Part shown: positions 10,376 through 57,496 of the stretch, piece by piece | Numbering within the stretch: position 1 is the stretch's first letter | Layout of the letters: each line of letters begins with the position of its first letter | DNA from: Streptomyces sp. P3 | GTDB lineage: Bacteria > Actinomycetota > Actinomycetes > Streptomycetales > Streptomycetaceae | Length of the DNA stretch: 64,000 nt | Direction: 5' to 3' | Assembly (NCBI RefSeq): GCF_003032475.1 | Contig: NZ_CP028369.1 | Span: forward strand, 7,688,001-7,752,000 | Notes under the pieces: generated by a model | The model's input: the letters and a program-made list of their open reading frames with translations, nothing else | Told to the model about the DNA's origin: nothing | Database searches by the model: none | Made by a program: the position numbers and the translations under genes

Positions 10376-10390
10376 GAGAATCATATTCTC
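10376..10390. promoter_or_regulatory. Island operator, perfect GAGAAT-CAT-ATTCTC
   Basis: A perfect 6-3-6 palindrome, 55 bp upstream of the crotonase start and beyond the GntR stop codon at 10408. Because the GntR gene ends here, the site can only serve the leftward operon 10320 to 741. It matches the other island copies at all 12 arm positions. Confidence 0.8.
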
Positions 10391-10407
10391 AACCGGTGCC
10401 GGGCGGA

Positions 10408-11217
10408 TCAGGCCTCGGGCTCGGTCAGTTCCACCCGATCCCGGCGGTCCACCTCCGCGGCGGCCCGTGCGAACCCGCACACATGGCGGCTCATCCGCCG
10501 CCGGGCGGCCGCCGCGTCACCCGCCCTGATGGCCTCGGTGATCTTCGCGTGCGCCCGGGCGGTGACCTCGCGGATCCGGGCGTCCATGAACCGTTCCAGG
10601 TTCGTGGCGGCGTAGATCGACTCCGAGAGAGCGCTGAGGAACCCGATGAGCAGCTCGTTGCCGCCGGCCCTCGCCACCCCGTTGTGCCAGCGGACGTTGG
10701 CCCGCAGGAAGCGCCGGATGTCCTCACCGGCCCCGACCAGCTCGGCGTGGGCGGCGTCCAGGTCGGCCAGGTCCTGCTCGGAGCGCCGGCCGGCCGCGAG
10801 AGCCGCGCACGCCGGTTCGATCGCCTCGCGGGTCTCGTGCAGCGCCTCCAGCCGGATCTGCTGGCCCCGGATCACCAACCGGACCGTGTTCGCCAGGGAC
10901 TCCCGGCCCGGCCGGCGCACGAAGGCCCCGCCCCCGCGTCCCGGCCGGATCTCCACCAGCCGCTCGACCTCCAGGATGCGCAGCGCCTCCCGGACGGTCG
11001 CCCGGCTCAGCCCCGTCTGCTCCACCAGCTGCCGCTCGGGAGGCAGTGCCGTGCCCTCCGTCAGCTGCCCGGTCAGGATGCGCTCACGCACCTCGGCGGC
11101 CAGGACGTCCGAGGCCTTGGGGACGGTGAGCGTGTCGAAGCGCGGGGTGCGGGAGGTGGAATGGGCGCTGGGCACGGGTTCAGGCCTCTCGTCGGGCGTC
11201 CGTTTCGGCTGAACCAT
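10408..11217 (-). CDS. GntR-family transcriptional regulator, FadR subfamily (FCD domain)
   Basis: A 269-residue regulator. An N-terminal winged helix-turn-helix (about residues 35-105; LPPERQLVEQTGLSRATVRE followed by ALRILEVERLVEIRPGRGG) is joined to an all-helical FCD domain. His residues typical of a metal-bound effector pocket appear in RWHNGV, RAHAKI and MSRHVCGF. FadR-type proteins usually repress until an acyl-CoA or carboxylate effector binds. The gene lies 20 bp after the SDR in an ACAD-SDR-GntR operon whose promoter carries GGTCAGACC, so autoregulation is likely. It may also control the operon starting at 10320. Confidence 0.9.
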   Translation of the reverse strand: MVQPKRTPDERPEPVPSAHSTSRTPRFDTLTVPKASDVLAAEVRERILTGQLTEGTALPPERQLVEQTGLSRATVREALRILEVERLVEIRPGRGGGAFVRRPGRESLANTVRLVIRGQQIRLEALHETREAIEPACAALAAGRRSEQDLADLDAAHAELVGAGEDIRRFLRANVRWHNGVARAGGNELLIGFLSALSESIYAATNLERFMDARIREVTARAHAKITEAIRAGDAAAARRRMSRHVCGFARAAAEVDRRDRVELTEPEA

Positions 11218-11237
11218 TCAACACCGCGTGCCGTCCG

Positions 11238-12005
11238 TCAGATGACCAGCCCGCCGTCCACCGGCAGCACCTGTCCGGTGACGAAGGACGCCGCGTCGGA
11301 GGCGAGGAAGACGAACGCGCCCGCGACCTCGGCCGGCTCCGCCCACCGGCCCAGCGGGATCCGGGCGAGCATCCGGTCCGCGAACTTCGGGTCGGTGCGG
11401 ATGGTCTCGGTCATCGAGGTCGCCGCCAGCGGTGCCAGCGCGTTGACCAGGATGTTCTTCCTGGCCAGCTCGCGGGCCAGCGACTTGGTGAACCCGATGA
11501 CGGCGGCCTTGGCCGCCGAGTAGTTCACCTGGCCCAGGGTGCCGGTCAGGCCGGCCGACGACGTGACGTTGATGATCCGCCCGGTGCCGTCCGTCGGGAG
11601 GAAGGGCAACGCGGCCTGGGCGCACTGGAACGCTCCCAGCACATGGACCTCGATCAGTCGCCGTACCGACTCCTTCTCCAGCTTCTCGAACATCGCGGGA
11701 GCGGTGACCCCGGCGTTGTTGACGAGGATGTGCAGCGTCCCGCCGGTGAGCGCGGCGGCCCGGGACACCGCGGCGTCGGCCGCTTCCCGGTCCACGACGT
11801 CCAGGGCCGCTCCCTCGGCGCGCAGGCCCCGCGCGGTCAGCCTCGCGGCCACGTCCGCGGCCGCGGCCCCGTCGACATCGGTGACGAGCACCGCGGCCCC
11901 GGCCCGTGCCAGCGCCTCGGCCACGGCCGAGCCGATGCCGCCGCCGGCGCCGGTCACCAGCGCCGAACGTCCCGTCAGGGCGAACAGTCCCGTTCCTTCG
12001 GCCAT
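11238..12005 (-). CDS. SDR-family oxidoreductase (FabG-like)
   Basis: A 255-residue SDR with the TGAGGGIG cofactor motif, the NNAG motif, a catalytic Ser (NVTSSAG) and YSAAK, and the C-terminal GQVLPVDGG. It would oxidise a hydroxyl, or reduce a ketone, on an acyl-CoA or ring intermediate with NAD(P). I prefer the ATG at 12005 because a GAGGAG Shine-Dalgarno lies 5 bp ahead of it; a GTG one codon earlier is possible. The ACAD stop is 10 bp upstream and GntR follows 20 bp downstream. Confidence 0.88.
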   Translation of the reverse strand: MAEGTGLFALTGRSALVTGAGGGIGSAVAEALARAGAAVLVTDVDGAAAADVAARLTARGLRAEGAALDVVDREAADAAVSRAAALTGGTLHILVNNAGVTAPAMFEKLEKESVRRLIEVHVLGAFQCAQAALPFLPTDGTGRIINVTSSAGLTGTLGQVNYSAAKAAVIGFTKSLARELARKNILVNALAPLAATSMTETIRTDPKFADRMLARIPLGRWAEPAEVAGAFVFLASDAASFVTGQVLPVDGGLVI

Positions 12006-12014
12006 CACGGCTCC

Positions 12015-13181
12015 TCAGTAGCTCCTCGGAAGCCCCAGCGTGTGGGACCCCAGATAGTTCAGGACCATCTCCTGGCTGACCGGCGCGATCCGCATCAGGC
12101 GGGCCTCCCGGAAGAGGCGGGCCACCGGATACTCCTCGGAGTAGCCCATGCCGCCGTGCGTCTGCAGGGCCCGGTCGGCGGCGGTGAACCCGGCGTCCGC
12201 GCACAGGTACTTGGCGGTGTTGGCCTCCCGCCCGCACGGCCGGCCCTGGTCGTACAGCCAGGTCGCCTTGCGCAGTACGAGCTCCGCCGCGTCGAGGCGG
12301 GTGAGCGCGTCGGCGAGCGGGAACTGGACGCCCTGATTCATGCCGATGGGCCGGCCGAACACCTCCCGCTCGCGGCCGTAACGCACGGCCCGCTCCAGGG
12401 CGACCCGGCCGATGCCGAGCGCCTCGGCGGCGATCAGCATCCGCTCCGGGTTGAGACCGTCGAGCAGATGGCGGAAGCCCTGGCCCTCCTCGCCGACCCG
12501 GTCCTCGACGGGCACTCTGAGTTCGTCGATGAACAGCTCGTTGGAGGAGACGGCGTTGCGGCCCATCTTCGGGATCGGGCGGATGTCCACCCGGTCGCGG
12601 TCCAGGTCGGTCAGGAACAGGGTCATGCCGTCCGTCGGCCTGTCGACCTCGTCGCGCCGGGCCGTGCGGGTCAGCAGCAGGATCTTCTCCGACTCCAGGG
12701 CCTTGGAGATCCACACCTTGCGTCCACTGACGACGTAGTGGTCGCCGTCCCGGCGGGCGTACGTCGTGATGCTCGTCGTGTCCAGGCCGGCGCCCGGCTC
12801 CGTCACTCCGAAGCACACGTGCAGATCACCGCGCGCGATCCGGGGCAGGGTGCGCCGCTTCAGCTCCTCGGAGCCGTGCACCACCACCGGATGCATGCCG
12901 AAGATCGACATGTGGATCGCGCTGGCGGCGTTCATGCCACCGCCGGAGCGCGCGACCTCCTCCAGCAGCAGCGTGGCCTCCGTGATGCCGAGTCCGTGGC
13001 CACCGTACTCCTCGGGGATCGTGATGCCGAGCCAGCCGCCGTCCGCGACCACGGCGTAGAACTCCTCCGGGAACGCGTGGTCCCGGTCCTTCTCCATCCA
13101 GTACCGGTCGTCGAAGTCACGCAGGAGACCGGCCACGGCCTTGCGAATCGTCTCCTGATCCTCGGTCAGCTCGAAGTCCAC
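12015..13181 (-). CDS. Acyl-CoA dehydrogenase
   Basis: A 388-residue single-subunit ACAD with the N-terminal FELTEDQETIRKAV helix, VTEPGAGLDTTS, the QTHGGMGYSEEYP motif and a C-terminal APVSQEMVLNYLG segment carrying a Glu in the catalytic-base region. I place the start at GTG 13181, which has a GAGGGG Shine-Dalgarno 8 bp upstream and begins with the usual MDFELTEDQ-type terminus. The frame stays open to 13232, but the extension is not ACAD-like and would run into the GGTCAGACC dyad. It is first gene of the ACAD-SDR-GntR operon. Confidence 0.9.
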   Translation of the reverse strand: MDFELTEDQETIRKAVAGLLRDFDDRYWMEKDRDHAFPEEFYAVVADGGWLGITIPEEYGGHGLGITEATLLLEEVARSGGGMNAASAIHMSIFGMHPVVVHGSEELKRRTLPRIARGDLHVCFGVTEPGAGLDTTSITTYARRDGDHYVVSGRKVWISKALESEKILLLTRTARRDEVDRPTDGMTLFLTDLDRDRVDIRPIPKMGRNAVSSNELFIDELRVPVEDRVGEEGQGFRHLLDGLNPERMLIAAEALGIGRVALERAVRYGREREVFGRPIGMNQGVQFPLADALTRLDAAELVLRKATWLYDQGRPCGREANTAKYLCADAGFTAADRALQTHGGMGYSEEYPVARLFREARLMRIAPVSQEMVLNYLGSHTLGLPRSY

Positions 13182-13233
13182 AGTGGGGAACCCCTCTGCC
13201 GGGCGGCGGATGGAAAGTGCGAAACATATCAAA

Positions 13234-13242
13234 GGTCAGACC
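13234..13242. promoter_or_regulatory. Putative GntR/FadR operator GGTCAGACC
   Basis: The second copy of the GGTC-A-GACC dyad (context AAAGGTCAGACCAAA), 53 bp upstream of the ACAD start at 13181. A further half-site-like stretch, GTGGTCGGTC, follows at 13246-13255. Its position before the operon that contains the GntR gene supports autoregulation. Confidence 0.6.
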
Positions 13243-13285
13243 AAAGTGGTCGGTCAAGAGCCCGGAGGGATGTTTCCGACGTGAG

Positions 13286-13316
13286 CGGGCCCCCGCGGGT
13301 GCGCCGCGGGGGCCCG
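13286..13316. terminator. Strong 13-bp stem terminator
   Basis: A perfect inverted repeat with 13-nt arms (13286-13298 and 13304-13316) and a 5-nt GTGCG loop, lying 19 bp after the stop of the TetR gene. It is very GC-rich and has no T-run, which is usual for actinomycete intrinsic terminators. It separates TetR transcription from the ACAD operon promoter. Confidence 0.7.
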
Positions 13317-13334
13317 AGCCTGAGGGCGGTCGGA

Positions 13335-14249
13335 TCAGGTCCGGGGCCGGGAAGTCGTCTTACCGGTGACGGATCTGGCCGGGGTGGTGGACTTCCTCGC
13401 GGCGGTGCCCGATGCCGTCTTCTTGGCGCTGGTGCCCGAGGCTGTCTTCTTGGCGGCGGTGCCCGAGGCTGCCCTCGTCGCCGTGGTGTCCGAGGTCGCC
13501 TTCTTCGCGGCAGTCGTCTTCTTCGCCGCGCCCGTCTTCCTCGCGGCCGGCCCGGTCGTCGGCTCCTGGGTGCCGGCCGCCGCTCCGCCCGTGATCCCGC
13601 CGAGGCAGAACGCCCACACCTCCTCGACGGTGATCGGAGACGGGTGGGCTCCGACCGGGGCGGCGGGGGCCTGGGCCGTGAACATGGCCGTCTGCATGAT
13701 CAGGGAGGCGGTGCGCCGGGCCTTCGGGGAGGTGGCCTGCCCCGCCTGGACGGCCTCCTCCACCAGCTCGGTGAAGAGGCCGAGCAGGGGGAGGTGCGCG
13801 GTGGCCACCTGGTCCGGGTGGGACACCAGCAGCTGGACGGCGAAGTCGGTGAAGAGCGGCGACTGCCGGCCCGGGCGGGGCTTGGAGGCGTCGTAGAGCA
13901 ACTCGACCGCGGTCTTCAGTCGCGCCAGCGGGCCCTGTCCCGTGGCGGTCTTCTCGCGGATGTCGGCGGCCGACCTCGCCAGCGCGTCCTCGAACAGTGC
14001 GAGCAGCAGTTCGTGCTTGCCGTCGAAGTGCTGGTAGAAGCTGCGCAGCGACTGGCGGGAGCGCTCCACGACCTCCTGCACGGTGAAGTCGGTGGTGCCC
14101 TTGTCGGCGATGAGTTCCTGGGCGGCGTCCAGGAAGCGCTGCACGCGCTGCTCGGCGCGCAGCTTCGCCGCCCGGGTGGAGCGCTCGACGGCGCGCTGCC
14201 GCCAGGCGGGCTCGGGGGACTCGGCGGATTCGGCGGGGACGACACTCAT
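13335..14249 (-). CDS. TetR-family regulator with Lys/Ala-rich histone-like tail; candidate island regulator
   Basis: A 304-residue protein. Residues about 32-92 form a TetR DNA-binding domain with the HTH at about 57-76 and the SLRSFYQHFDGKHELLLALF block. A helical ligand domain runs to about residue 225. The last 75 residues are a low-complexity Ala/Lys/Thr tail with repeated AKKT units, encoded in part by three 27-bp tandem repeats. Such histone-H1-like tails in actinobacteria usually give non-specific DNA affinity. The gene diverges from the ACAD pair at 14417, and a perfect GAGAAT-N3-ATTCTC site lies between them, 94 bp from its start. It is therefore the best candidate to bind that palindrome across the island (inference). 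Confidence 0.9.
   Translation of the reverse strand: MSVVPAESAESPEPAWRQRAVERSTRAAKLRAEQRVQRFLDAAQELIADKGTTDFTVQEVVERSRQSLRSFYQHFDGKHELLLALFEDALARSAADIREKTATGQGPLARLKTAVELLYDASKPRPGRQSPLFTDFAVQLLVSHPDQVATAHLPLLGLFTELVEEAVQAGQATSPKARRTASLIMQTAMFTAQAPAAPVGAHPSPITVEEVWAFCLGGITGGAAAGTQEPTTGPAARKTGAAKKTTAAKKATSDTTATRAASGTAAKKTASGTSAKKTASGTAARKSTTPARSVTGKTTSRPRT
13392..13472. repeat. Three 27-bp tandem repeats in the TetR tail
   Basis: Units at 13392-13418, 13419-13445 and 13446-13472 are near-identical and encode the repeated nonapeptide ASGT(A/S)A(K/R)K(T/S). Copy number in such in-frame repeats can vary between strains without breaking the gene. Confidence 0.8.
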
Positions 14250-14302
14250 GGGAAGAACGGTACTCCACGCATGCGGAAAGAGGAGGCCGGAGCCCTACCG
14301 AA

Positions 14303-14322
14303 TTGCGCTCTGCGCAGTGCAA
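14303..14322. promoter_or_regulatory. Second dyad between TetR and ACAD genes
   Basis: An imperfect inverted repeat TTGCGCT-N6-AGTGCAA (6 of 7 arm positions pair), 53 bp upstream of the TetR start. It differs from the island palindrome. It may be a separate operator or promoter element, or chance; nothing else in the sequence decides this. Confidence 0.25.
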
Positions 14323-14342
14323 GAGCCTTACTCGCGCAGGGC

Positions 14343-14357
14343 GAGAATGGTATTCTC
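14343..14357. promoter_or_regulatory. Island operator, perfect GAGAAT-GGT-ATTCTC
   Basis: A perfect 6-3-6 palindrome in the divergent region between the TetR gene (start 14249) and the ACAD pair (start 14417). It is placed to regulate both directions, so TetR autoregulation is possible. Confidence 0.85.
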
Positions 14358-14416
14358 ACCCTCGGTCCGGGCCCGTGCCCGGGGGGCAGCCGGTGGTACG
14401 GCGGAGGAGGCCGGGC

Positions 14417-15268
14417 GTGGAGTTCGAACTCGACGAGGAACAGCGGCTGCTGCGGCGCACCGTGCGCGAGACGGTGGCCAAGATGCGCGGCCGCCCCGAG
14501 GACCAGCAATGGGACACCTACCTCCGCCTCGGCTGGCTGGAGGCGCCCCCGCTCGAGCTCGCCCTCATCCTCGAAGAGCTGGGGTACGCCGCCGACCCCA
14601 CCCCGTTCCTGGCCACCGCCACCTGGTTCGCACCGCTCACCGGCCGCCTCCCCGAGGGCAGCGGCACCGCCGTGTTCGACGGCGCCGGGCGCTACGTCCT
14701 CGACGCCGACCGGGCCGACGAGGTCGCACTGCTCACCGGCCGGGGGGTCATCGTCGTCCCGGGTGCGGAGCTGGCCGCACCACGGGTCCCGGTGCTCGAT
14801 CCGCACCTGCACGCCGCCCACGTCGACGCCGACGGCCTGGTCGCCGCGGTGCCCGAGCCGGCCCTGCTGGGGCTGGCGGCCACCTGTGTCGGCGCCTGCC
14901 GGCGCGTCCTCGACCTCGTCCTGGACCACGTGAGGCAGCGGGCACAGTTCGGCCGGCCGCTCGGCTCCTTCCAGGCCGTCAAGCACAAGGCGGCCGACAT
15001 GCACGTGGCCATCGAACGGGCCCGTGCCCTCACCCACTTCGGCGCCCTGACCCTCGCGGAGAACGACCCGCGCCGGACCGACGCCGCGCACATGGCCAAG
15101 GCGGCGGCGGGCGAGTGTCAGCGCCTGGTCTTCCGGCACGGTCTGCAACTGTTCGGCGCCATGGGCTTCACCTGGGAGAACGAACTGCAGTACCACCTCA
15201 AGCGCGCCCAGGCCTGCGACCTGCTCCTCGGCGTCGCATCCGTCCACAGGAAGGCATTGCTCGCGTGA
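14417..15268 (+). CDS. Acyl-CoA dehydrogenase-like subunit (heteromeric pair, small member)
   Basis: A 283-residue ACAD-fold protein with an N-terminal EFELDEEQRLLRRTV helix, a shortened middle, and the typical RAQFGRPLGSFQAVKHKAAD segment. It ends in QLFGAMGFTWENELQYHLKR, where the WE(N/H) pattern marks the small-partner type. The start is GTG 14417 with GGAGGAGG 7-14 bases before it; the frame is open further upstream but would read through the operator. TGA overlaps the ATG of the large subunit, so the two are coupled. Confidence 0.88.
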   Translation: MEFELDEEQRLLRRTVRETVAKMRGRPEDQQWDTYLRLGWLEAPPLELALILEELGYAADPTPFLATATWFAPLTGRLPEGSGTAVFDGAGRYVLDADRADEVALLTGRGVIVVPGAELAAPRVPVLDPHLHAAHVDADGLVAAVPEPALLGLAATCVGACRRVLDLVLDHVRQRAQFGRPLGSFQAVKHKAADMHVAIERARALTHFGALTLAENDPRRTDAAHMAKAAAGECQRLVFRHGLQLFGAMGFTWENELQYHLKRAQACDLLLGVASVHRKALLA

Positions 15269-16425
15269 TGAAGCTGGCCGACGACCCCGAGGTGGAGGCG
15301 TTCCGCGCGGAGTTCGCCGCCTTCCTCGACGCCCACCTGCCCGACGAGGCCGGGGCCCGCGAACGCGCCGGCTCCAGCGCCCACGTCCCCCGCTGGGCAC
15401 GCCGCTGGCAGCGCACCCTGTTCGACGCGGGCTGGCTGCTGCCGGGCCAGCCGCCCGAGTACGGCGGCCGGGACGCCACCCTGCCCCAGCAACTCGCCCA
15501 CCTGGAGGAGCTGGCCCGCCGTCGGGTCTACCACAGCTTCAACCCCCAGGGCCTCGGCATCATCGCCGCCTCCCTGCTCACCTTCGGCACCGAGGAGCAG
15601 AAGCGCCGCTGGGCGGTGCCGATCCTGCGCGCCGAGATCACCGCCGCGCTCGGCATGAGCGAACCCGAGGCCGGCTCCGACCTGGCCTCCCTGCGCACCA
15701 GGGCCGTACCGGACCGGGACGGGTTCGTGGTCAACGGGCAGAAGGTCTGGACCTCCGGCGCGCACGACGCAGACGTCCTGCTCGCCTTCGTCCGCACCGA
15801 CCCGGACGCGCCCAAGCACCAGGGCATCAGCGCCCTGCTGGTCCCGACCGGCGCCGAAGGCGTCGTGCGCCGCCCGTTCGGGTCGATCGCCGCCGAGGAC
15901 GACCTGGACTTCAACGAGGTGTTCCTCACCGACGTGCGCGTACCCCGAGAGAACCTCCTCGGCCCCCTGAACGAGGGCTGGCGGGTGGCGAACGGCTCCC
16001 TCGGCCACGAACGCACGCTGCTGTGGCTGTCGTACGCCGAACGCCTCGAGGACCTGCTCCGCGACGCGGCCGACGCGGGAGCCGGCCAGGAGTGGTACGC
16101 CACGCTCCGCATGGACCTGACGGCGCTGCGCCTGCTCGGCCACCGCCAGCTCGGCCAGGACCGGGACCCGGCGGAGATCTCGGTGCTCAAACTGCTCGGC
16201 TCCGAGGCCGTCCAGTCCGCCTCCCTGTACGCGCTGGAGGCGCACGGCGTCGAGGGGCTGGAGCATCCGGCACGCACGGGCCCGTACCACCACATGCACC
16301 ACGAGCACTTCATCTCCAGCTGGTTCGAGCGGTACGCGCGCAGCTTCGCCGGCACCATCGCGGGCGGCACCAGCGAGATCCAGCGCAACATCATCGCCGA
16401 GCGCATCCTCGGCCTGCCGCGATAG
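15268..16425 (+). CDS. Acyl-CoA dehydrogenase subunit (heteromeric pair, large member)
   Basis: A 385-residue ACAD with MSEPEAGSDLAS, NGQKVWTSGAH and the C-terminal AGGTSEIQRNIIAERILGLPR. It pairs with the preceding 283-residue subunit (1-base overlap TGATG). Insertion of a His-rich segment (YHHMHHEHF, about residues 342-350) is unusual and might reflect a substrate or metal contact. It is followed 24 bp later by a crotonase gene, giving a dehydrogenation-hydration module under the operator at 14343. Confidence 0.9.
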   Translation: MKLADDPEVEAFRAEFAAFLDAHLPDEAGARERAGSSAHVPRWARRWQRTLFDAGWLLPGQPPEYGGRDATLPQQLAHLEELARRRVYHSFNPQGLGIIAASLLTFGTEEQKRRWAVPILRAEITAALGMSEPEAGSDLASLRTRAVPDRDGFVVNGQKVWTSGAHDADVLLAFVRTDPDAPKHQGISALLVPTGAEGVVRRPFGSIAAEDDLDFNEVFLTDVRVPRENLLGPLNEGWRVANGSLGHERTLLWLSYAERLEDLLRDAADAGAGQEWYATLRMDLTALRLLGHRQLGQDRDPAEISVLKLLGSEAVQSASLYALEAHGVEGLEHPARTGPYHHMHHEHFISSWFERYARSFAGTIAGGTSEIQRNIIAERILGLPR

Positions 16426-16449
16426 ACGAGGGACAGGAGGACACGCCAC

Positions 16450-17241
16450 ATGGACCAGATCCTGTACGAGGCCGAGGACGGCATCGCCACGATCACCCTC
16501 AACCGGCCCGAGGCGGCCAACGCCCAGACCATGGCGCTCCTCGACGACCTGGACGCGGCCTACACCCGGGCCGCGCGCGACCGGGACGTCCGGGTCGTCG
16601 TCCTCAGGGCGAACGGGCAGCACTTCTCCGCCGGGCACGACCTGAAGGACCGCTGGCCCGGCCCCGGCGAGATCACCCTGGAGTGGATCTACGACACCGA
16701 GACCCGCCACTATCTGGAGTACGCGCTGAAGTGGCGCAACATCCCCAAGCCGACCATCGCGGCCGTCCAGGGCAAGTGCATCGCGGCCGGGCTGATGCTG
16801 TGCTGGCCGTGCGACCTGATCGTCGCGGCGGAGAACGCCGAGTTCTCCGACCCGGTGGTGCACATGGGCATCGGCGGTGTCGAGTACCACGGCCACACCT
16901 GGGAGCTGGGCCCGCGCAAGGCCAAGGAGATCCTCTTCACCGGACGGCCGCTGACCGCCCGCGAGGCCGAGCAGGCCGGCATGGTGAACAAGGTCGTGCC
17001 CCTCGACGAACTCGGCTCCACGACGCACGAGTTGGCCGAGCGGATAGCCGCGATGCCGCCCTTCGGGCTGCGCCAGGCCAAACGGGCCGTCAACCAGACC
17101 CTCGACGTCCAGGGCTTCCACGCCGCCCTCCAGTCGGTCTTCGACGTCCATCAGACGGGGCACGGCAACGCGCTGAGCGTGGACGGCTTCCCGATCCTGA
17201 CCCGCCTGGACGAGATGAAACAGCGACTGAAGCAGGGCTGA
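16450..17241 (+). CDS. Enoyl-CoA hydratase/isomerase family protein
   Basis: A 263-residue crotonase-fold protein. The substrate loop (PEAANAQT), the HFSAGHDLKDR segment and GKCIAAGLMLCWPCDLI oxyanion-hole motif are present. The second active-site loop reads MGIGGVEYHGH instead of a Glu-containing hydratase loop, so the reaction is uncertain. It has its own AGGAGG Shine-Dalgarno. It converges on the 17262-18341 gene, and a hairpin spanning both stop codons separates them. Confidence 0.86.
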   Translation: MDQILYEAEDGIATITLNRPEAANAQTMALLDDLDAAYTRAARDRDVRVVVLRANGQHFSAGHDLKDRWPGPGEITLEWIYDTETRHYLEYALKWRNIPKPTIAAVQGKCIAAGLMLCWPCDLIVAAENAEFSDPVVHMGIGGVEYHGHTWELGPRKAKEILFTGRPLTAREAEQAGMVNKVVPLDELGSTTHELAERIAAMPPFGLRQAKRAVNQTLDVQGFHAALQSVFDVHQTGHGNALSVDGFPILTRLDEMKQRLKQG

Positions 17242-17266
17242 GCCCGGGGCCGCCCCCGGGCTCAGC
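17237..17266. terminator. Bidirectional terminator overlapping two stop codons
   Basis: A perfect 13-nt inverted repeat (17237-17249 and 17254-17266) with a 4-nt CCGC loop. It includes the TGA of the crotonase gene and the TGA (TCA on the plus strand) of the convergent gene. The compact geometry suggests it ends transcription from both sides. Confidence 0.75.
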
Positions 17267-18341
17267 CGAGGGCCGCGGTGAACGGGGGGAGGTCCACCGT
17301 GGTCCGGATGCCCGGGGCCGCCGCACAGACGGCGGGTACCGCGTTGACGGCCCGGTGCGCGGTGTAGCGGGGGGAGACCGCCCCCAGCCGCTCCAGCGGC
17401 ACGGGGAACCGCATCTCGACGTCGAGGGGCGCGTCGCCGTCGACCGTCAGATGCCATCCCGTGGGTCGCAGGTCCCAGGCCGGCTCCAGGTCCGTGGTGC
17501 AGTACCAGGTCGCGTCGAACTCCAGCAGCGTGCGGCCGTCGCGCAGGCCGGACAGGGTCGTACGCTGCGCCGCCACCGTGCCGGCGGGCAGGACGCCGGC
17601 GGCGATGCCGGTCGTGCGTGCCGCGGTGGCGAACCCCCCACTGGCCTGTACGGAGTCGAGCGGCACCCCGAGGGCGTCGGCCACCAGACGCAACGACGGC
17701 CCGAAGCTCCTTTGGAGGTGCGCGAGGCGCCCCTCGTCGTACTCCGCGGCAGGCGCCCGGCCGAAGCCCATGATGTCGAACAGCAGTTCCGGTGAGTTCC
17801 GCAGGGACAGATCCGCGTACTCGTGGACGGCCAGCCGCTCCAGCCGCCGCTGGACGGAGGCCAGCACGAGCGGAACGGCCTCGGTGATGAAGCCCGGGCT
17901 GCTGCCGGTGTCGTGGAGCGAGGTGCCGCCCTGCTCGCAGGCCGCCTCGACGCGTCCGCGGACCGCCGGATCCATGCCGTCCGGGTGGTGGAACCCGCCG
18001 GTCGTGGCCACGACGTTCGCGCCGGACGCGAGCAGGGCGCACAGGTCGTCCAGGCCGGTCGTGCGGGGCATGTACAGCACGCAGTCGGCGCCCAGGGCGA
18101 GGACGTCGTCGAGACGGTGGGTGGTGGTGACGCCGGTGGGGCCCGCGCCGCACAGGTCGCCGGCGTCCCGCCCGGCCTTGCCCGGCGCGTGGACGTGAAC
18201 TCCGGCCAGTGTCATGCCGGGATGGCCGAGGACGGCGCGCAGCGACTGCGCGCCGATGGTTCCCGTGGCCCACTGGACGACGCGAAGCGGCTCGTCATGC
18301 CCTGCTGCGGAACGCCGCGTGTCACCATCCCTCCCGGTCAC
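17262..18341 (-). CDS. DapB-like NAD(P)-binding oxidoreductase
   Basis: A 359-residue protein of the dihydrodipicolinate-reductase / amine-dehydrogenase-like group found in catabolic actinobacterial clusters. An N-terminal Rossmann motif (VVQWATGTIGAQSLRAVL) is followed by a TGGFHHPDG segment and a conserved SSPGFITEAVPL block. The C-terminal half has no known catalytic motif that I can identify. I start it at GTG 18341, whose GTGA overlaps the stop of the upstream CMD-like gene. It is the last gene of the TauD-SDR-CMD-DapB operon. An oxidoreductase role with NAD(P)H is inferred; the substrate is unknown. Confidence 0.75.
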   Translation of the reverse strand: MTGRDGDTRRSAAGHDEPLRVVQWATGTIGAQSLRAVLGHPGMTLAGVHVHAPGKAGRDAGDLCGAGPTGVTTTHRLDDVLALGADCVLYMPRTTGLDDLCALLASGANVVATTGGFHHPDGMDPAVRGRVEAACEQGGTSLHDTGSSPGFITEAVPLVLASVQRRLERLAVHEYADLSLRNSPELLFDIMGFGRAPAAEYDEGRLAHLQRSFGPSLRLVADALGVPLDSVQASGGFATAARTTGIAAGVLPAGTVAAQRTTLSGLRDGRTLLEFDATWYCTTDLEPAWDLRPTGWHLTVDGDAPLDVEMRFPVPLERLGAVSPRYTAHRAVNAVPAVCAAAPGIRTTVDLPPFTAALG

Positions 18342-18874
18342 GCGGCGGCCCCCTGACCGCCCGTGCCGCCGTCGTCCGTCCCCGGGTCGGGCTCCACGCC
18401 GAAGGTGTTGTAGGCCATGGCCTGCATTCCGTACGCCCCGACGGTGAACACGAAGTCCATCAGCCGGCGTTCGTCCATGTCCTTCGCCAGTTCCCCGTAC
18501 ACCTCGTCGGAGAGGGAGGAGGTGGTCTCGAGTTCGTCCACGGCCCGGTTCAGCAGGGTGGGGGCGCCCCGGCGCACCTCCTCCAGCTCCGTCTCGGTGA
18601 CACCCGCCGCACGCGCCAGCGACACGTGGTGGGACCACTCGTACCGGCACCGGTGCCGCCAGGCGACCCGGAGGATCGTCAGCTCCCGCGTCCGCGCGGG
18701 CAGGGTGCTGCGGTACAGCAGGTGGGTGCCGAAGGTGAGGAACGCCTTGGCCAGCTCCGGGTGGTTCAGCAGCAGGCCGAGCACGTTCGACGGCGGAACG
18801 GTACGCCCGCCGGTCAGCGGCCGCAGCACCTCGGTGTCCCACTCCTCGTACGGGACGGGTGGCACCCTCGTCAT
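18338..18874 (-). CDS. Carboxymuconolactone decarboxylase-family (AhpD-like) protein
   Basis: A 178-residue CMD-fold protein. The core motif HRCRYEWSHHVSLARAAG carries the family's Cys, Glu and His residues, but there is no CxxC, so a peroxidase-reductase role like AhpD is unlikely. Related proteins in catabolic operons may act as lactone decarboxylases or isomerases, but many are unassigned. The ATG at 18874 overlaps the stop of the SDR (ATGA) and its own stop overlaps the next gene, so the three are tightly coupled. Confidence 0.82.
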   Translation of the reverse strand: MTRVPPVPYEEWDTEVLRPLTGGRTVPPSNVLGLLLNHPELAKAFLTFGTHLLYRSTLPARTRELTILRVAWRHRCRYEWSHHVSLARAAGVTETELEEVRRGAPTLLNRAVDELETTSSLSDEVYGELAKDMDERRLMDFVFTVGAYGMQAMAYNTFGVEPDPGTDDGGTGGQGAAA

Positions 18875-19590
18875 GTGTTGCGGCCCCCGTTCACGCCGAT
18901 GATCTGCCCGGTGATGTACCCGGCCTCCTCGCCGACCAGGAAGGCGCAGGTCGCGGCGATGTCCTCCGGGCGGCCGACGCGGCGTACCGGTGTATGGGCG
19001 ATGTGGTCCTCGATGGTGCCGCCGAGCCGCTGGTTCTGTTCGGCGGTGCGCAGCATGGGGGTGTCGACGAAACCCGGCGGGATGGCGTTCACCGTGATGC
19101 CCTTGGGGCCGAGTTCGAGGGCGAGGGCCTTGGTGAGCCCGTTGACGGCGGACTTGGCGGCGACGTAGTGCGCCATGAACGGCTGTCCCGAGTGGGCGCT
19201 GGAGGACGAGATGTTCACGATGCGGCCCCAGCGGGCCCGGAGCATGTCCGGCAGGACCGACTGCACGCAGTGGAAGACGCCGTTGAGGTTGATGTCGACC
19301 ACGCGCTGCCAGTCGGTGAAGGGCAGGTCCGAGAAGCGGGTGAAGCCGTCCTTGCCGGCCGCGTTGACCAGGACACGCACGGGCCCGAACCGCTCGCGCA
19401 CCGCGTCCATCGCCTTGTCGACCTGGGCACGGTCCGTGACGTCCACCGTCAGCCCGAAGCCCTCCTCGACGGGGGAGAGGTCGAGCACGGCCACGTTCAG
19501 GCCGTCGGCGGTGAGCCGCTGCGCGATCGCCCGGCCGATGCCGGAGGCACCTCCCGTCACGACGGCGGTCGGGGCCGTCGCGGCGCTCAC
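18871..19590 (-). CDS. SDR-family oxidoreductase
   Basis: A 239-residue SDR with TGGASGIG, an NAAG motif, Ser (NISSSSAHSG), YVAAK and a C-terminal GQIIGVNGG. It starts at GTG 19590, overlapping the stop of the TauD-type gene; the ATG-containing frame further upstream only mirrors that gene. The substrate is probably the alcohol or ketone made or used by the upstream dioxygenase (inference from operon order). Confidence 0.87.
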   Translation of the reverse strand: MSAATAPTAVVTGGASGIGRAIAQRLTADGLNVAVLDLSPVEEGFGLTVDVTDRAQVDKAMDAVRERFGPVRVLVNAAGKDGFTRFSDLPFTDWQRVVDINLNGVFHCVQSVLPDMLRARWGRIVNISSSSAHSGQPFMAHYVAAKSAVNGLTKALALELGPKGITVNAIPPGFVDTPMLRTAEQNQRLGGTIEDHIAHTPVRRVGRPEDIAATCAFLVGEEAGYITGQIIGVNGGRNT

Positions 19591-20393: not shown

Positions 20394-20414
20394 GGAAATG
20401 CCCCTTCCGAATGG

Positions 20415-20429
20415 GAGAATCTTATTCTC
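20415..20429. promoter_or_regulatory. Island operator, perfect GAGAAT-CTT-ATTCTC
   Basis: A perfect 6-3-6 palindrome 21 bp upstream of the TauD-type dioxygenase start, in a 181-bp divergent region that also holds two weaker copies facing the plus-strand operon. So close to the start codon, it would overlap the promoter core or 5' leader. Confidence 0.85.
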
Positions 20430-20492
20430 ATGCGCCGCGGGGCGGAAACCCCTGCGTGTGCCGGGGCGTTGGGAGGGGGGTCGTACCTGACT

Positions 20493-20507
20493 GACAGTGT
20501 GATTCTC
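20493..20507. promoter_or_regulatory. Degenerate island operator, GACAGT-GTG-ATTCTC (10/12)
   Basis: The right arm is perfect and the left arm matches at 4 of 6 positions. It lies 67 bp upstream of the SDR start at 20575, in the same register seen for other promoters, and probably serves the large plus-strand operon. Confidence 0.5.
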
Positions 20508-20535
20508 GTGTGCGAATCCTTGCCTCGCGCAAAAA

Positions 20536-20550
20536 GAGAATGTAGTTTCC
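20536..20550. promoter_or_regulatory. Degenerate island operator, GAGAAT-GTA-GTTTCC (9/12)
   Basis: The left arm is perfect and the right arm matches at 3 of 6 positions; it lies 24 bp upstream of the SDR start. On its own it would be weak. Together with the sites at 20415 and 20493 it gives three candidate binding positions in one divergent promoter region. Confidence 0.35.
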
Positions 20551-20574
20551 GAGCAACCGAGCGAGGAGGCTGGG

Positions 20575-25434: not shown

Positions 25435-25450
25435 ACCGGAGATGAGAGAC

Positions 25451-44876: not shown

Positions 44877-46449
<1,573 letters not shown>

Positions 46450-46450
<1 letters not shown>

Positions 46451-46851: not shown

Positions 46852-46852
46852 C

Positions 46853-47809: not shown

Positions 47810-48843
47810 ACGGTCCGCTGGCCGGCCTGCGCGTCCTGGAGGTCGGCCACATCCTCGCCGGCCCGTACGCCACCATGCTGCTCGCCGACCTGGGTGCCCG
47901 GGTGACCAAGATCGAACCGCCGGGCGGCGACCTGTCCCGGCAGGTCTCCGACGCCTACTTCGCCAGCCTCAACCGGAACAAGCGCTCGGTCCGCGTGGAC
48001 CTGTCGGCTCCGGCCGGCCAGGACCGGCTGCACGAGCTGGTTCGCGACGCCGACGCCCTGCTGGTCAACCTCAAACCGTCCGCCGTCGAGCGCTTCGGTC
48101 TGACCTACGAGGCGCTGAAGCCCTACAACGAGCGCCTGGTGTGCGTGGCCGTCACCGGCTGGGGCATGGACGCGGGCGACCTGCCCGCCTTCGACTACGT
48201 CGTCCAGGCGGCCACCGGTGTCGCGGCCATGACGGGCGACCCGGACGGACCGCCCGCGCTGCCCGGCTACTCCTCGGTCGACAACTCGGCCGGAATGGCG
48301 GCCGCTCTGGGACTGCTGGCGCAGATCGTCTCCGGACGCGGCGGCCAGATCGAGGTGTCGCTGCGCGACGTGATGCTCTCGCAGCTGAACTACCACGTCG
48401 CGGCCTGGCTCAACGACGGCAGGGCCCCGCGCCGCCTCGGAGGGGCCCACGCCCACTACGTCCCCGCCCAGCTCTTTCCCACCGCCGAGGGACACCTGGC
48501 CCTCTTCATCACCCACGACGGCTTCTGGCGTGCCTTCGCCGCCGAGGCCGGCATCGAGGGCTACCCGACGATGGCCGAGCGTACGGCCCGCCGGGAGGAG
48601 GTGGTGGCCGCGGTGACGAAAGCGCTCGCCGCCGACTCGGCGGTGAGCTGGGAGCGCCGGCTGCGTCCGCTGGGCGTCCCGGCCGCCGCCGTACGCACGC
48701 TGCCCCAGGCACTCGTCGAGTTTCCCGACGCCGTCGTGCGGGCCGGTGAACACCGCCTGGTCGCGAGCCCGTTCCGGATCGCCGGGCACCATCCGTCGTA
48801 CGGCCCGCCGCCGCGCCTGGGAGAACACGGCGACCTGCTCTGA
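47806..48843 (+). CDS. Family III CoA-transferase (CaiB/BaiF type)
   Basis: A 345-residue CaiB/BaiF protein, shorter than its two paralogues. The N-terminal LEVGHILAGPYATMLLADLGARVTKIE, a NRNKRSVRVDL segment and the putative catalytic Asp in AFDYVVQAATG are visible. It begins at GTG 47806 overlapping the LLM stop (GTGA) and is the last gene of its operon, before a strong hairpin. Confidence 0.87.
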   Translation: MNGPLAGLRVLEVGHILAGPYATMLLADLGARVTKIEPPGGDLSRQVSDAYFASLNRNKRSVRVDLSAPAGQDRLHELVRDADALLVNLKPSAVERFGLTYEALKPYNERLVCVAVTGWGMDAGDLPAFDYVVQAATGVAAMTGDPDGPPALPGYSSVDNSAGMAAALGLLAQIVSGRGGQIEVSLRDVMLSQLNYHVAAWLNDGRAPRRLGGAHAHYVPAQLFPTAEGHLALFITHDGFWRAFAAEAGIEGYPTMAERTARREEVVAAVTKALAADSAVSWERRLRPLGVPAAAVRTLPQALVEFPDAVVRAGEHRLVASPFRIAGHHPSYGPPPRLGEHGDLL

Positions 48844-48907: not shown

Positions 48908-50824
48908 TCAGGTCCCGTTCGCCGGCTGGTGGTAGGTCCGCCCGCCGACGGTCGTGGTCAGGGTGCCGGCCGCCTGGAAGACCGTGTCCCACAGGTCGAT
49001 CGTCAGGTGGAAGCCATCGGCGCCGGTCTTCTTGGTGGCCAGTGTCCTGCCCTTCGGCCCGGTCTTGACCAGGTCCGAGCTCCAGTCGAGGGTGGTGAGG
49101 GTGGAGCTGCGGCTGACACGGGTCACGCTCTCGGTGCCGTCGAGGAAGGTCCGGCCGTCGTCCGAGTAGTGCGTGTAGCGCAGTGACACCGTCTTCACAC
49201 CGGTTTTGGCGTCGTCGTCCCACACGATGTCGACCTTCGCGCCGCCGGACGCCTTCCCGCGCAGGGTGTAGGTGCCCTGGGGCGGGTAGGGCCGCTCCGG
49301 AACCGCGCTGCCCGGGACGTAGGGCGTGCCCCACGGCAGTTCGTCAAAGACCGGCTTCACCGGCCGGGCGCGTACCGGCTCACGCTCGACCAGCTCCGCG
49401 AGCATCAGCCGGGTACGGCGGCCGCCCGGCTCCTCGGACACGGGGCAGGGCAGCGGGTTCGCTCCGCCGCAGGCGGGCGCCGACACCAGGCGCTCGTGGT
49501 AGACGACCGCCGTCCCGTCCGGGGACCAGCGCGGATCGGCACCCGCGTTCCAGTTCGCGGAGGTGTTCGCGTAGTTGAGCCGCTGGCCCTGATAGCGGCC
49601 GCGGTCACCGTGACGGTCGATGAGGTAGGGCTGGAAGAAGCGCCGGTCGCCGTTGTTGCGCACGGAGGAGACCGCCGAGGTGCTCAGCAGGTCGGTGATC
49701 GGAGGGATGCCGCTCATGCCGGACATGAAGGCCATGCGGTCGCTGCCCCGGGTGTCCAGCGCCACGATCCACCGGTCGTCCGGGGACGAGTCCATGGGGT
49801 CGGTGTACTCGGGGTCGGACGTCACCCTGCGGACCTTGCCGGTGTGCAGGTCGGCGGCCATGAGGTCCATGTTGGACGATTCGGCGGGGAAACCGACGTA
49901 GAAGACCTCCCTGCCGTCCTTCGAGAAGCCGCGCAGCTCGCCGACGGAGGGCACCGAGGCGTCGAACACGAGCTTCGAGGAGTCCTCGGGGTCGACGTGC
50001 ACCGGCTGTTCGGTGGTGGCGGAGTCGAACATGCGGGTGACCTTTTCCAGGTCGTAGCGGGGCACCCGCGGTGTGCCCGTCGTGGGGGACGGGTCGAACC
50101 TCAGCCGCGCGAAGTAGCCGTACTGGTCGAACCGTCCGGCCGTGATCGAGGTGGCGTTGAATCCGAGGTGCACCTGGTCGGGGTGCAGGCGCAGTTCCCG
50201 GATCGTGCCGCCGGCACCCGAACCGTCGGCCTCGGTGTTCCAGTGGATCGGGTGGACGCGCACGCGGGCCGGGGTGCAGGCCGCGGACGCGAGCCGGTAG
50301 GGGCCGCAGTCGAGGATGTTCGTCCCCCACAGCACCCGCCGGCCGTCGGCGAAGGGCTGCGGGTAGCTGATGTCGGGGTTCATGCCCTGCTTGTTCTCAG
50401 GCGGTGTGCCGCACGTGAGGCATTTCCACGCGTCGCCGTTCGGGAAGGTCTTCCCGTCCGTCCGTACGGCGATCAGCTGGCTTCCGCTGTAGACCCGCGC
50501 CGGGTCTGGCGCGGCCGGGGCGCCGGTGAAGGTCACGTTGGCGGTGACCACGCGGCCCTCCGGAAGGAAGCCCCCGGCCCGCATCGTGGCCCCCCAGTCG
50601 GCCGACACACAGCCGGTTCCGCGTGGGTTCACGGCGCGGGTGCAGGATCCGGCCTCGTGCGAGGGGGCGGTCGGCGGCAGCGGCAGCCTCTTCACCCTGA
50701 TCCGCTCGGGAGCGGGAGGAGGCGGAACGGCCGAGGAGGCCGGGGCGGCCTGAGCCGGGGACAGGAAGGCGGTGATGCCGACAAGCGCCACCAGGGCGGC
50801 AAGGCCTCTGGGTCTCGTGCGCAT
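48908..50824 (-). CDS. Large secreted beta-propeller (TolB/WD40-like) protein, possibly saponin-hydrolase-like
   Basis: A 638-residue exported protein with a Sec signal peptide (about residues 1-26, ending SPAQA). A paired-Cys-rich N-terminal part (CTRAV, GTGCVSADW, WKCLTCG, ILDCGPY, SAACTP) is followed by propeller-like repeats such as ELRGFSKDGREVFYVGF, TDPMDSSPDDRWIVALD and DPRWSPDGTAVVYHE. From memory, this layout recalls fungal saponin hydrolases; I cannot confirm that without a search. It is co-transcribed (19-bp gap) with the SDR at 50844 under a perfect island palindrome, so the extracellular protein is part of the regulon. AAGGAG precedes ATG 50824. Confidence 0.72.
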   Translation of the reverse strand: MRTRPRGLAALVALVGITAFLSPAQAAPASSAVPPPPAPERIRVKRLPLPPTAPSHEAGSCTRAVNPRGTGCVSADWGATMRAGGFLPEGRVVTANVTFTGAPAAPDPARVYSGSQLIAVRTDGKTFPNGDAWKCLTCGTPPENKQGMNPDISYPQPFADGRRVLWGTNILDCGPYRLASAACTPARVRVHPIHWNTEADGSGAGGTIRELRLHPDQVHLGFNATSITAGRFDQYGYFARLRFDPSPTTGTPRVPRYDLEKVTRMFDSATTEQPVHVDPEDSSKLVFDASVPSVGELRGFSKDGREVFYVGFPAESSNMDLMAADLHTGKVRRVTSDPEYTDPMDSSPDDRWIVALDTRGSDRMAFMSGMSGIPPITDLLSTSAVSSVRNNGDRRFFQPYLIDRHGDRGRYQGQRLNYANTSANWNAGADPRWSPDGTAVVYHERLVSAPACGGANPLPCPVSEEPGGRRTRLMLAELVEREPVRARPVKPVFDELPWGTPYVPGSAVPERPYPPQGTYTLRGKASGGAKVDIVWDDDAKTGVKTVSLRYTHYSDDGRTFLDGTESVTRVSRSSTLTTLDWSSDLVKTGPKGRTLATKKTGADGFHLTIDLWDTVFQAAGTLTTTVGGRTYHQPANGT

Positions 50825-51649: not shown

Positions 51650-51664
51650 GAGAATGGCATTCTC
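51650..51664. promoter_or_regulatory. Island operator abutting a start codon, GAGAAT-GGC-ATTCTC
   Basis: A perfect 6-3-6 palindrome in a 53-bp divergent region. Its last base directly precedes the ATG of the ligase at 51665, and it lies 38 bp from the SDR start at 51611. Regulator binding would cover the translation start and any 5' leader. Confidence 0.85.
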
Positions 51665-55916: not shown

Positions 55917-55922
55917 CGCGTC

Positions 55923-57017
55923 TCACTCCTTCCCGAGGTCCAGCAGCCGGCGGGCGACGATGTTGCGCTGGATCTCGGCGGTGCCTCCGTAGATCGTCGC
56001 GGCCCGTGAGTACAGGTACTCGGTGCGCCATGCCCCGTCCGGCGCCAGCTCCACGGCCCCGGGCAGGAGGTCCCGCGCGGTGTCGAAGAGCCGCTGCTCG
56101 GCGCCGGCGAGCAGGATCTTGTCCACGGAGGTCTCCGGGCCGAACGGTCCGCCGTCGGCCAGGGCCCGCTGGGTCGCCGCAGAGCGGCAGCGCACTCCGT
56201 GCAGGTCCAGCCACACCGCACCCAGCGCGTCGGCGTCCGGTTCGCAGTCGTCGGCCAGGAGGCGGTCGAGCCGGCTGTAGAGATGGGCGACGCGGTGCCA
56301 GAAGCAGGTGGACCGTTCGTGCGGAAGCAGGTCCATCGCCAGGCGCCAGCCGTCACCGGGGGAGCCCAGCAGACGGTCGGCGGGGACCCGTACGCCGTCG
56401 AAGAACACCTCGGCGAACTCGTCCACGCCGTGCATGGTGCGCAGCGGCCGTACGGTGACGCCGGGGGAGTCCATGTCGACGAAGAAGGCGCTGATCCCCC
56501 CGTGTCCGGGCCCTCCCGTCCGGGCCAGCAGGACGCAGCGGGCCGCGTACTGGGCAAGGCTCGTCCAGACCTTCTGCCCCGTCACCATCCAGCCGTCGTC
56601 GTCCGGCACCGCCCTGGTCGACAGGGAGGCCAGGTCGCTGCCCGAGCCCGGCTCGGAGAAGCCCTGACACCACTGCTCCTGTCCGCTGAGGAGCCGGGGC
56701 ACCATGGCGGCGGCGAGCGCGGGCGGCGCGTAGTCGATCAGCGTGGGGACCAGTACCTCGACCATCGACCACAGGCCGGGCTCCGTCGGATCCCGCGAGG
56801 CGACCTCTTCGCCCAGTACCGCACGCAGCACGCTCGGACCGCCGAGCCCGCCGACCGAGCCCGGCCAGCCGTGTCGCATCCAGCCCGCCGCCCACAGCTC
56901 CCGCCGGACGCGGGCCAGTTGGGCGACCTGGGCGTCCAGACCGTGGTCCGGGCCGGGGGACAGGTCGTGACCGTCCAGCCAGGTGCCCACCGTCCGCCGG
57001 AAGTCCCCGGTCCTCAT
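55923..57017 (-). CDS. Acyl-CoA dehydrogenase subunit (heteromeric pair, large member)
   Basis: A 364-residue ACAD with FSEPGSGSDLAS, GQKVWTS and the C-terminal YGGTAEIQRNIVARRLLDLGKE. It resembles the 7374-8531 subunit in segment order (WCQGFSEPG, FGPETSVDKILLAGAEQRL), which suggests the two ACAD pairs arose by duplication. It starts at ATG 57017, overlapping the SnoaL-like stop by 4 bp. Confidence 0.88.
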   Translation of the reverse strand: MRTGDFRRTVGTWLDGHDLSPGPDHGLDAQVAQLARVRRELWAAGWMRHGWPGSVGGLGGPSVLRAVLGEEVASRDPTEPGLWSMVEVLVPTLIDYAPPALAAAMVPRLLSGQEQWCQGFSEPGSGSDLASLSTRAVPDDDGWMVTGQKVWTSLAQYAARCVLLARTGGPGHGGISAFFVDMDSPGVTVRPLRTMHGVDEFAEVFFDGVRVPADRLLGSPGDGWRLAMDLLPHERSTCFWHRVAHLYSRLDRLLADDCEPDADALGAVWLDLHGVRCRSAATQRALADGGPFGPETSVDKILLAGAEQRLFDTARDLLPGAVELAPDGAWRTEYLYSRAATIYGGTAEIQRNIVARRLLDLGKE

Positions 57018-57430
57018 CGGCGGGTGTGCTCGAAGGCGTGCGGGCGGCCCGAGTCGTGGGCGCCACTGCGGCGGATGAAGGTCATGGCCCGGGTGCGCAG
57101 CCGCCAGCCCTTCGGCGTGCGGACGTAGGTGTCGTCGTAGTAGCCGATGCGCATCTCGTGCGCGGAGTGCTCGACGAAGCACAGCGGCTGGGTGCCGACG
57201 GCCGTGTCGCCGTCCAGCTCGATCACCGGCGTGCCCACGAGGAACAGCCCTTTCGGGGCGGCGGAGACGAGCGCCGGGAACGCGTCGAGCGGGTAGGTGT
57301 CCCCGAAAGCGCTGTAGGTGCCGTCCGGGGTGAACACGGCGAGCACCCGGTGGACTTCCCCGCGGGTCATCGCCACCGCGTAACGGGCGAGGAGCTGTTC
57401 GATCTCCACCAGGTCGTCGGTGTCGCTCAA
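57014..57430 (-). CDS. SnoaL/limonene-epoxide-hydrolase-like protein
   Basis: A 138-residue protein with the NTF2-like fold: helical start (IEQLLARYAVAMTRGEVHRVLAVFTPDGTY) and beta strands ending in GWRLRTRAMTFIRRSG. Members act as ketosteroid isomerases, epoxide hydrolases, cyclases or small accessory proteins. The catalytic residue pattern does not let me choose. It heads the leftward operon with the ACAD pair and thioesterase, 51 bp from the palindrome at 57482. Confidence 0.83.
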   Translation of the reverse strand: MSDTDDLVEIEQLLARYAVAMTRGEVHRVLAVFTPDGTYSAFGDTYPLDAFPALVSAAPKGLFLVGTPVIELDGDTAVGTQPLCFVEHSAHEMRIGYYDDTYVRTPKGWRLRTRAMTFIRRSGAHDSGRPHAFEHTRR

Positions 57431-57481
57431 GGGCCCCGTCCTCTCGTCTGCGAAACGCTGCGCACCTTCTTCGGACTACGC

Positions 57482-57496
57482 GAGAATGTCATTCTC
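57482..57496. promoter_or_regulatory. Island operator, perfect GAGAAT-GTC-ATTCTC
   Basis: A perfect 6-3-6 palindrome in the 127-bp divergent region between the SnoaL-like gene and the ABC permease gene, 61 bp upstream of the permease ATG. It can control both operons. Confidence 0.85.

Follow-up and report, generated by a model that had tools for sequence, protein, structure and literature searches.

We analyzed a window of 64,000 nucleotides (bases 7,688,001–7,752,000 of the single 9,851,971-bp contig of Streptomyces sp. P3), in which a 15-bp palindrome, GAGAAT-N3-ATTCTC, stands in front of most operons of a catabolic gene island. Judging from sequence, a single island-encoded regulator of the TetR type very probably binds this palindrome, and the best-supported candidate is the product of the gene at 13335–14249 (minus strand), called TetR1 here. 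We consider it highly likely that the palindrome is the TetR1 operator, that TetR1 represses its own gene and most operons of this island and of a second copy of it on the same chromosome, and that a coenzyme A (CoA) thioester relieves the repression. The sites are often two-part, consisting of a strong copy plus a weak copy.

A first-pass annotation of the window had listed six perfect copies of the palindrome and several weaker ones, and our scan with the pattern GAGAATNNNATTCTC returned the same list: perfect copies at 10376–10390, 14343–14357, 20415–20429, 42222–42236, 51650–51664, and 57482–57496, one with a single mismatch at 40623–40637 (11/12), one with two at 20493–20507 (10/12), and two with three at 20536–20550 and 34669–34683. 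With up to three mismatches, the window holds 20 matches where 4.7 are expected, and none of 100 shuffles got to 20. Perfect copies and copies with one mismatch each number 11 on the whole chromosome, and allowing up to two mismatches brings the total to 67, against 10 for a reversed control pattern. The annotation was right to call the word rare by chance, as the base composition of this chromosome (72% GC) predicts ~0.02 perfect copies versus the 11 observed. It had also suggested a genome-wide scan, naming equal motif density elsewhere as the outcome that would speak against a regulon; 20 of the 22 sites with at most one mismatch were found to fall in two islands that make up 1.6% of the chromosome, nine of them in the island of the window (two to the left of the window itself) and 11 at 8.19–8.28 Mb, leaving only two outside both islands. 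One of these solitary sites (8,945,203) lies ~480 bp from a homolog of the gene at 48908–50551 and the other (2,666,517) ~90 bp before a putative alpha/beta hydrolase gene, labeled by eye. An asymmetric form, GAGAA-N5-TTTCC, which takes in the copies at 20536 and 34669, occurs 12 times in the genome, six of them within the two islands. The spacers of the seven strong sites of the window (at most one mismatch) all differ, as had been claimed, but the spacer is not free, since across 187 sites in relatives it leans toward R-N-Y; the flanks of these sites lean Y...R.

The same annotation had placed the sites at operon starts and, unless a new transcript could begin there, not inside operons. Every one of the seven strong sites lies at most 70 bp from at least one called start. 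We extended the count to nine islands, namely island A (that of the window), island B (8.19–8.28 Mb), and seven regions from relatives: of the 77 sites that deviate at no more than one position, every one falls in the 300 bp upstream of a called start, where such upstream zones make up 26–30% of the sequence, and two of the 77 are also inside a called gene. The site at 42222 marks an internal operon start, as described, where it runs over the final codons of the preceding gene, whose stop lies at 42247, and ends 22 bp short of an ATG; it is not the only one, because a gene in the same direction (10408–11175) likewise precedes the site at 10376. That nearly every operon is marked is a fair description: the seven strong sites precede 12 gene starts heading 53 of the 63 called genes if runs in the same direction are taken as operons (54 if an open reading frame of 52 codons is counted). 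The GH3 region at 32055–34503, the gene at 48908–50551, and both window ends have no strong site, and 34739–37685 has a weak pair only. In 14 island gene families, at least four members carry a site with no more than two mismatches in the 260 bp upstream; families with fewer such members fall outside this listing. In island A, 11 of the 14 stand first in a same-direction run, and three follow a same-direction gene, namely the families of 9511–10320, of 42259–43437, and of a P450-like gene left of the window.

Genes were called in a 104-kb stretch around the window and a 110-kb stretch around the second cluster, which gave island A a size of about 70 kb, starting ~7 kb left of the window, instead of the 62 kb first assigned to it. 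Island B, at 8.191–8.280 Mb, shares 63 reciprocal gene pairs with island A (at least 70% identity, median 91%), and 56 of the 63 genes wholly within the window have a partner there. Among the seven that lack one are the GH3 gene, its small neighbor, and the gene at 48908–50551, all of which have no strong site either; the GH3 glycosidase gene (32055–34503) is flanked by conserved island genes. In the relative G013, the single site cluster is closer to island B (median 97.9% identity over 56 gene triples) than to island A (91.2%), B being the closer one in 55, so that island B is the counterpart of this cluster and island A a divergent extra copy. Ten pairs of A and B sites are 93% identical in their arms, 63% in their spacers, and 71% in their flanks (ungapped, 30 bp per side), although the arm value is set partly by selection because the pairs were chosen for a site in both members. 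The sites are also conserved in related clusters, including those where operons are reshuffled (G121, G084, and G139), in which they precede the same genes. The idea of a single regulon of about 50 genes is supported as to one regulon and falls short as to size, as the second island carries the same sites. Island B and G013 also have in common an extra insert with its own site pair 22 bp apart (8,249,840 and 8,249,862).

Three regulators are encoded in the window: a GntR/FCD protein (10408–11175), TetR1 (13335–14249), and TetR2 (31064–31663). The N-terminal domain of TetR1 matches the DNA-binding family TetR_N (PF00440 in Pfam, 41.1 bits for a cut-off of 24), with QSLRSFYQHFDGK as its recognition-helix segment, and a perfect operator (14343–14357) lies in the divergent promoter region between its gene and an acyl-CoA dehydrogenase gene, which suggests autoregulation. 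TetR1 ends in a Lys/Ala-rich C-terminal tail (13335–13595) that is histone-H1-like; tails of at least 25 residues were confined to the closest clade (16 of 82 sequences, three not being scorable).

The distribution of TetR1 follows that of the palindrome. A perfect site is present in 11 of 150 genomes of the genus, a set that includes the own genome, and nine of the 11 have two or more; TetR1 is present in all nine, in neither of the two with one site, and in 1 of 15 chosen genomes that have none (Fisher p = 3e-6). The sole TetR1 carrier among these 15 (G011) has sites with one and two mismatches flanking TetR1. The two genomes with a single perfect copy and no TetR1 (G135 and G028) were taken as background, and a comparison of the genes that surround the G135 site with the regions fetched from the own genome gave no match. 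A search of named genomes gave 96 TetR1 relatives, the nearest of them in Streptomyces, and 80 loci (1.5 Mb) were kept, coming from Streptomyces, Actinomadura, Thermomonospora, Streptacidiphilus, Catenulispora, and others. These loci contain 123 perfect sites and 191 with at most one mismatch, where the reversed pattern gave 0, and TetR1 is neighbored by a site with no more than one mismatch in 65 of the 80. A search for plasmid-borne TetR1 copies gave no match at E 1e-20.

Beyond Streptomyces, a perfect site was found in 52 of 296 genomes of the class and the reversed pattern in four, with one family standing out (2–10 copies in 17 of its 24 genomes). TetR1 was then sought at a threshold of at least 50% identity in 52 selected genomes, one of which (G349) is of the own genus; 34 of the 52 site-bearing genomes entered this test, the others being G000 and G013, tested before, and 16 with one or two copies. 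TetR1 was present in 25 of 26 genomes with at least two sites, in three of eight with one, where the site adjoins TetR1, and in none of 18 without. In the pieces fetched from six genomes, a site adjoins TetR1 and the same genes are again preceded by sites. When the G399 copy of TetR1 was used for a protein search, Mycobacterium and Mycolicibacterium were among the matches listed (120 of 2084), which are annotated only as TetR/AcrR family or similar. Site and TetR1 thus co-occur in Streptomyces, Actinomadura, and mycobacteria.

Degenerate second copies, which the first-pass annotation had not noticed, recur in the promoter alignments. With a partner defined as an 8-of-12 match and a non-redundant set of 98 sites (50% context identity), 16 matches were found at 21 bp and 28 at 22 bp, against a mean of 0.5 and a maximum of 4 at other offsets. 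A partner at 21–22 bp accompanies 42 of the 98 sites (flank shuffles: mean 0.58, maximum 4), and in the redundant count 118 of 306 sites are paired versus 0 of 306 for the reversed-pattern control. The sites of mycobacteria and one other genus behave in the same way (11 of 38 paired, shuffle mean 0.28; 7 of 26 in the non-redundant set, mean 0.19). Pairing is promoter-specific, ranging from 8 of 10 at the Rieske operon and 33 of 63 at TetR1 to 1 of 22 for the class of 20415 and 0 of 14 for that of 10376. For the class of 40623, all seven promoters with the divergent A62/A63 arrangement have a partner, compared with 2 of 14 where only the leftward gene is present.

In the window, the weak copy at 34669–34683, which aligns to a perfect or one-mismatch copy in G121, G084, and G139, has a 9/12 partner 21 bp away at 34690–34704. 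The site at 40623 has an asymmetric partner (40601–40615, 8/12) 22 bp away that is identical in island B and G013 and differs by one base in G068 and G091. A possible partner of 42222, also at 22 bp, is the 9/12 copy at 42244–42258, which overlaps the ribosome-binding site. The copy 22 bp from the TetR1 operator (14321–14335) reaches only 7/12 here but 8–9/12 at about half of the relatives' TetR1 sites. A further match with two mismatches, at 42250, overlaps both the ribosome-binding site and the start codon and probably does not act as an operator of its own.

A distance of 21–22 bp corresponds to two helical turns, and a second TetR1 dimer might occupy the degenerate copy on the same face of the helix. 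The weak partner could also be another element, such as a promoter motif or the site of a different regulator, with TetR1 binding only the strong copy. We regard this as rather unlikely: the partners are indeed degenerate and promoter-specific, and one of them overlaps a ribosome-binding site, but both partner arms match the operator, and the strong/weak order swaps between relatives at the Rieske-operon promoter, being strong-plus-weak in G121, G084, and G139 (aligned to 34669/34690) and weak-plus-strong in G068 and G091.

From the site distribution, its conservation, the co-occurrence with TetR1, and the pairing, we infer the following scheme. One TetR1 dimer would bind one GAGAAT-N3-ATTCTC, with a second dimer on the degenerate copy at many promoters, and TetR1 sitting at or just downstream of promoters would repress its own gene and most island operons. 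Island B would be repressed too, as the helix-turn-helix segment is identical in the TetR1 copies of islands A and B, so that cross-regulation of the two islands is expected. Repression of the TetR-family type is favored because several operators are centered 20–31 bp before a start codon, too close for a promoter to fit in between unless the transcript has no leader. When 9500–22000 was scanned with a simple sigma-70 model, it gave no promoter-like sites against which the operators could be placed. Release of TetR1 would come from a CoA thioester of the island's substrate, which is probably alicyclic (terpenoid- or steroid-like). KstR reportedly senses the CoA thioester of a metabolite of cholesterol (PMC8228715), and by analogy a CoA ester of the pathway seems the likeliest inducer of TetR1.

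Several observations weigh against this scheme. No site with at most one mismatch stands beside the gene in 15 of the 80 TetR1 loci: the number of mismatches is two in five of them and three to five in the other ten, and a GAGAAC..GTTCTC-like variant is found in several. Of the 14 loci whose fetched stretch holds no more than two other island families, seven retain a site, which speaks for the scheme, whereas seven lack one altogether. As the seed peptides for the TetR1 search included FYQHFDGK, the conservation of the helix in that set is partly a matter of selection. G264 has two perfect sites and no TetR1 at threshold, seven tested genomes (five from the class selection and the two of the genus named above) have a single site and no TetR1 at threshold, and G322 has a 39% TetR1 match and no site. 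As for the pairing, the window offers only three clear pairs, one of which is the copy overlapping the ribosome-binding site, and 10376, 20415, 51650, and 57482 have no partner at 21–22 bp. Finally, 10376 stands upstream of a conserved block containing TTGACA, a position open to an activator too.

TetR1 might indeed bind these sites and act mainly as an activator, as FasR does on fas-acpS. FasR is the top NCBIfam match of TetR1, though far below the cut-off, and chains 6o6n and 6o6p, which we take to be FasR, are among its best solved-structure matches. FasR activates its target promoter and occupies three inverted repeats there (PMC7382501), and the position of 10376 is compatible with such a role. 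However, the operators centered 20–31 bp before start codons are too near for upstream activation and most sites lie between divergent genes, tetR1 included, which makes this alternative improbable.

It is still less credible that the sites belong to the GntR protein or to TetR2 in place of TetR1. Both are conserved between islands A and B, and close GntR orthologs (at least 78% identity) are present only in site-bearing genomes (6 of 150), but orthologs of GntR and of TetR2 (at least 48%) are absent from G084, G121, and G139, three of the nine genus genomes with at least two perfect sites, and GntR is found at only 11 and TetR2 at only three of the 80 TetR1 loci. Moreover, a word presumably of GntR/FadR type stands separately before 10320: a conserved block at ~10330–10375, beside the gntR gene, contains the palindrome GGTCTGACC (GGCCTGACC in island B and G013), which is possibly the site of a second, local regulator. 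The idea that GAGAAT-N3-ATTCTC recurs by chance or for structural reasons, with no regulator involved, can practically be dismissed, as only the palindrome's small size would favor it whereas the placement, the conservation, and 11 perfect copies for ~0.02 expected contradict it.

The operators head the following gene runs. The site at 10376 lies 55 bp before the gene at 9511–10320(-), the head of a nine-gene catabolic run (741–10320, minus strand) for an SDR, acyl-CoA dehydrogenases, a thiolase, hydratases, a CoA transferase, and a ligase; its counterpart in island B carries one mismatch. The site at 20415 lies between divergent genes starting at 20393(-) and 20575(+) and shares the rightward gene with the degenerate operator at 20493, which has one mismatch in island B and several relatives, and with the asymmetric copy at 20536 (plus strand), which recurs unchanged ahead of the orthologous gene in B, G013, G124, G068, and G091. 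The run behind these three (20575–31663, plus strand) encodes an SDR, an aldehyde dehydrogenase, a CoA transferase, a periplasmic binding protein, a ferredoxin, a P450, a ChsH2-OB/thiolase fusion, and others, as well as TetR2. The weak pair at 34669/34690 precedes the Rieske oxygenase operon, and 40623 separates divergent genes at 40596(-) and 40661(+). Perfect in all nine islands, 42222 overlaps the 3′ end of the preceding gene and heads the run that opens with the ATG at 42259 (42259–48843, plus strand), with an amidohydrolase, a ligase, a split B12 mutase, a luciferase-like oxidoreductase, and, as its last gene (47806–48843), what looks by eye like a CoA transferase. The site at 51650 lies between genes at 51611(-) and 51665 or 51677(+). 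The last operator, 57482, stands between 57430(-) and the ABC permease operon starting at 57558 (57558–63109, plus strand), directly before which lies the asymmetric copy GAGAAGCTAATTTCC (57538–57552, plus strand), identical in B and G013 and differing by one to two bases in G124, G068, and G091. The first two genes within 59647–61777 of this run likewise resemble, by eye, ABC ATPases, and 61802–63109 had no NCBIfam match.

The island encodes three large/small acyl-CoA dehydrogenase subunit pairs, a P450, a Rieske oxygenase, the ChsH2-OB/thiolase fusion, the split B12 mutase, and a Liv/Urt-like uptake system, a gene set that points to a bulky alicyclic acid as the substrate. When the P450, mutase, and Rieske proteins were compared with solved structures, only class-level hints to the substrate emerged. 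The nearest solved structure to the split B12 mutase (44873–46851) is 2-hydroxyisobutyryl-CoA mutase, and the protein seems to keep what we take to be the Tyr and Arg of methylmalonyl-CoA mutase.

A broader proposal, to which we would give a little less than an even chance, is that these genes form an undescribed ring-catabolism regulon of cholesterol-regulon size, common to Streptomyces, Actinomadura-type genera, and mycobacteria, under one TetR protein acting through single operators and cooperative two-turn pairs whose strong and weak halves are interchangeable and set operon-specific thresholds. With TetR1 as candidate switch and an operator that can be read from the sequence, about 50 genes without an assigned pathway, doubled here and present in many actinomycetes including mycobacteria, become a single predicted regulon. 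A reporter built on this operator would offer a direct route to the island's substrate, and the 21–22 bp pairing is a testable rule for promoter-specific thresholds under one TetR protein.

In the literature searched, which did not extend to subscription journals, no paper was found with the whole operator strings; the papers among the matches listed for the half-site words were unrelated by title or abstract, and in the available part of PMC8228715 these words are primers. Among known regulators, FasR resembles TetR1 in a weak match of the DNA-binding half, in its three inverted repeats per promoter, and in sensing acyl-CoA, but it is an activator of fatty acid synthesis (PMC7382501), and TetR1 is not a FasR by the NCBIfam model (33.9 bits for a cut-off of 330). 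DarR and QacR likewise place two TetR-family dimers on one operator region, although the DarR palindromes overlap in one 20-bp operator (PMC10636190) while the copies here are separate and two turns apart. KstR2 is a TetR repressor of CoA-linked ring catabolism with sites between divergent genes, but its operator, AnCAAGnnCTTGnT, differs in sequence and length and its regulon has 15 genes (PMC3068626). TetR1 as KstR2 was rejected on this operator difference and on a sequence similarity that is distant only (4w97, E 1e-4).

The closest parallel is KstR, which governs cholesterol catabolism in mycobacteria and rhodococci as an autoregulated TetR repressor with a short palindrome before many operons, in a regulon of 83 genes in M. 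smegmatis that occupies a large lipid-catabolic region (PMC1995591). Its half-site TAGAAC is near the GAGAAT found here, some of its sites overlap coding sequence (PMC1995591), and two motif copies occur in some of its promoters, as with the pairs described above (PMC8228715, PMC1995591). The KstR operator, TnnAACnnGTTnnA, spans 14 bp with a 2-bp gap (PMC1995591), as opposed to 15 bp with a 3-bp gap here, and the available portions of PMC1995591 and PMC8228715 make no mention of a fixed 21–22 bp pairing with a degenerate copy for KstR. TetR1 scores 23.2 bits with the KstR model of NCBIfam (cut-off 280), and over the whole genome this model found nothing above its cut-off, the best match being 196.8 bits at 3.805 Mb. 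As to a steroid ring-degradation gene set like that under KstR, the island offers the ChsH2-OB/thiolase fusion and small dehydrogenase subunits with a resemblance to IpdE2 far below the cut-off, in a search that took in no KstD or Hsa enzymes. By its predicted logic, the TetR1 system would work like KstR, yet by sequence model and operator it is not KstR.

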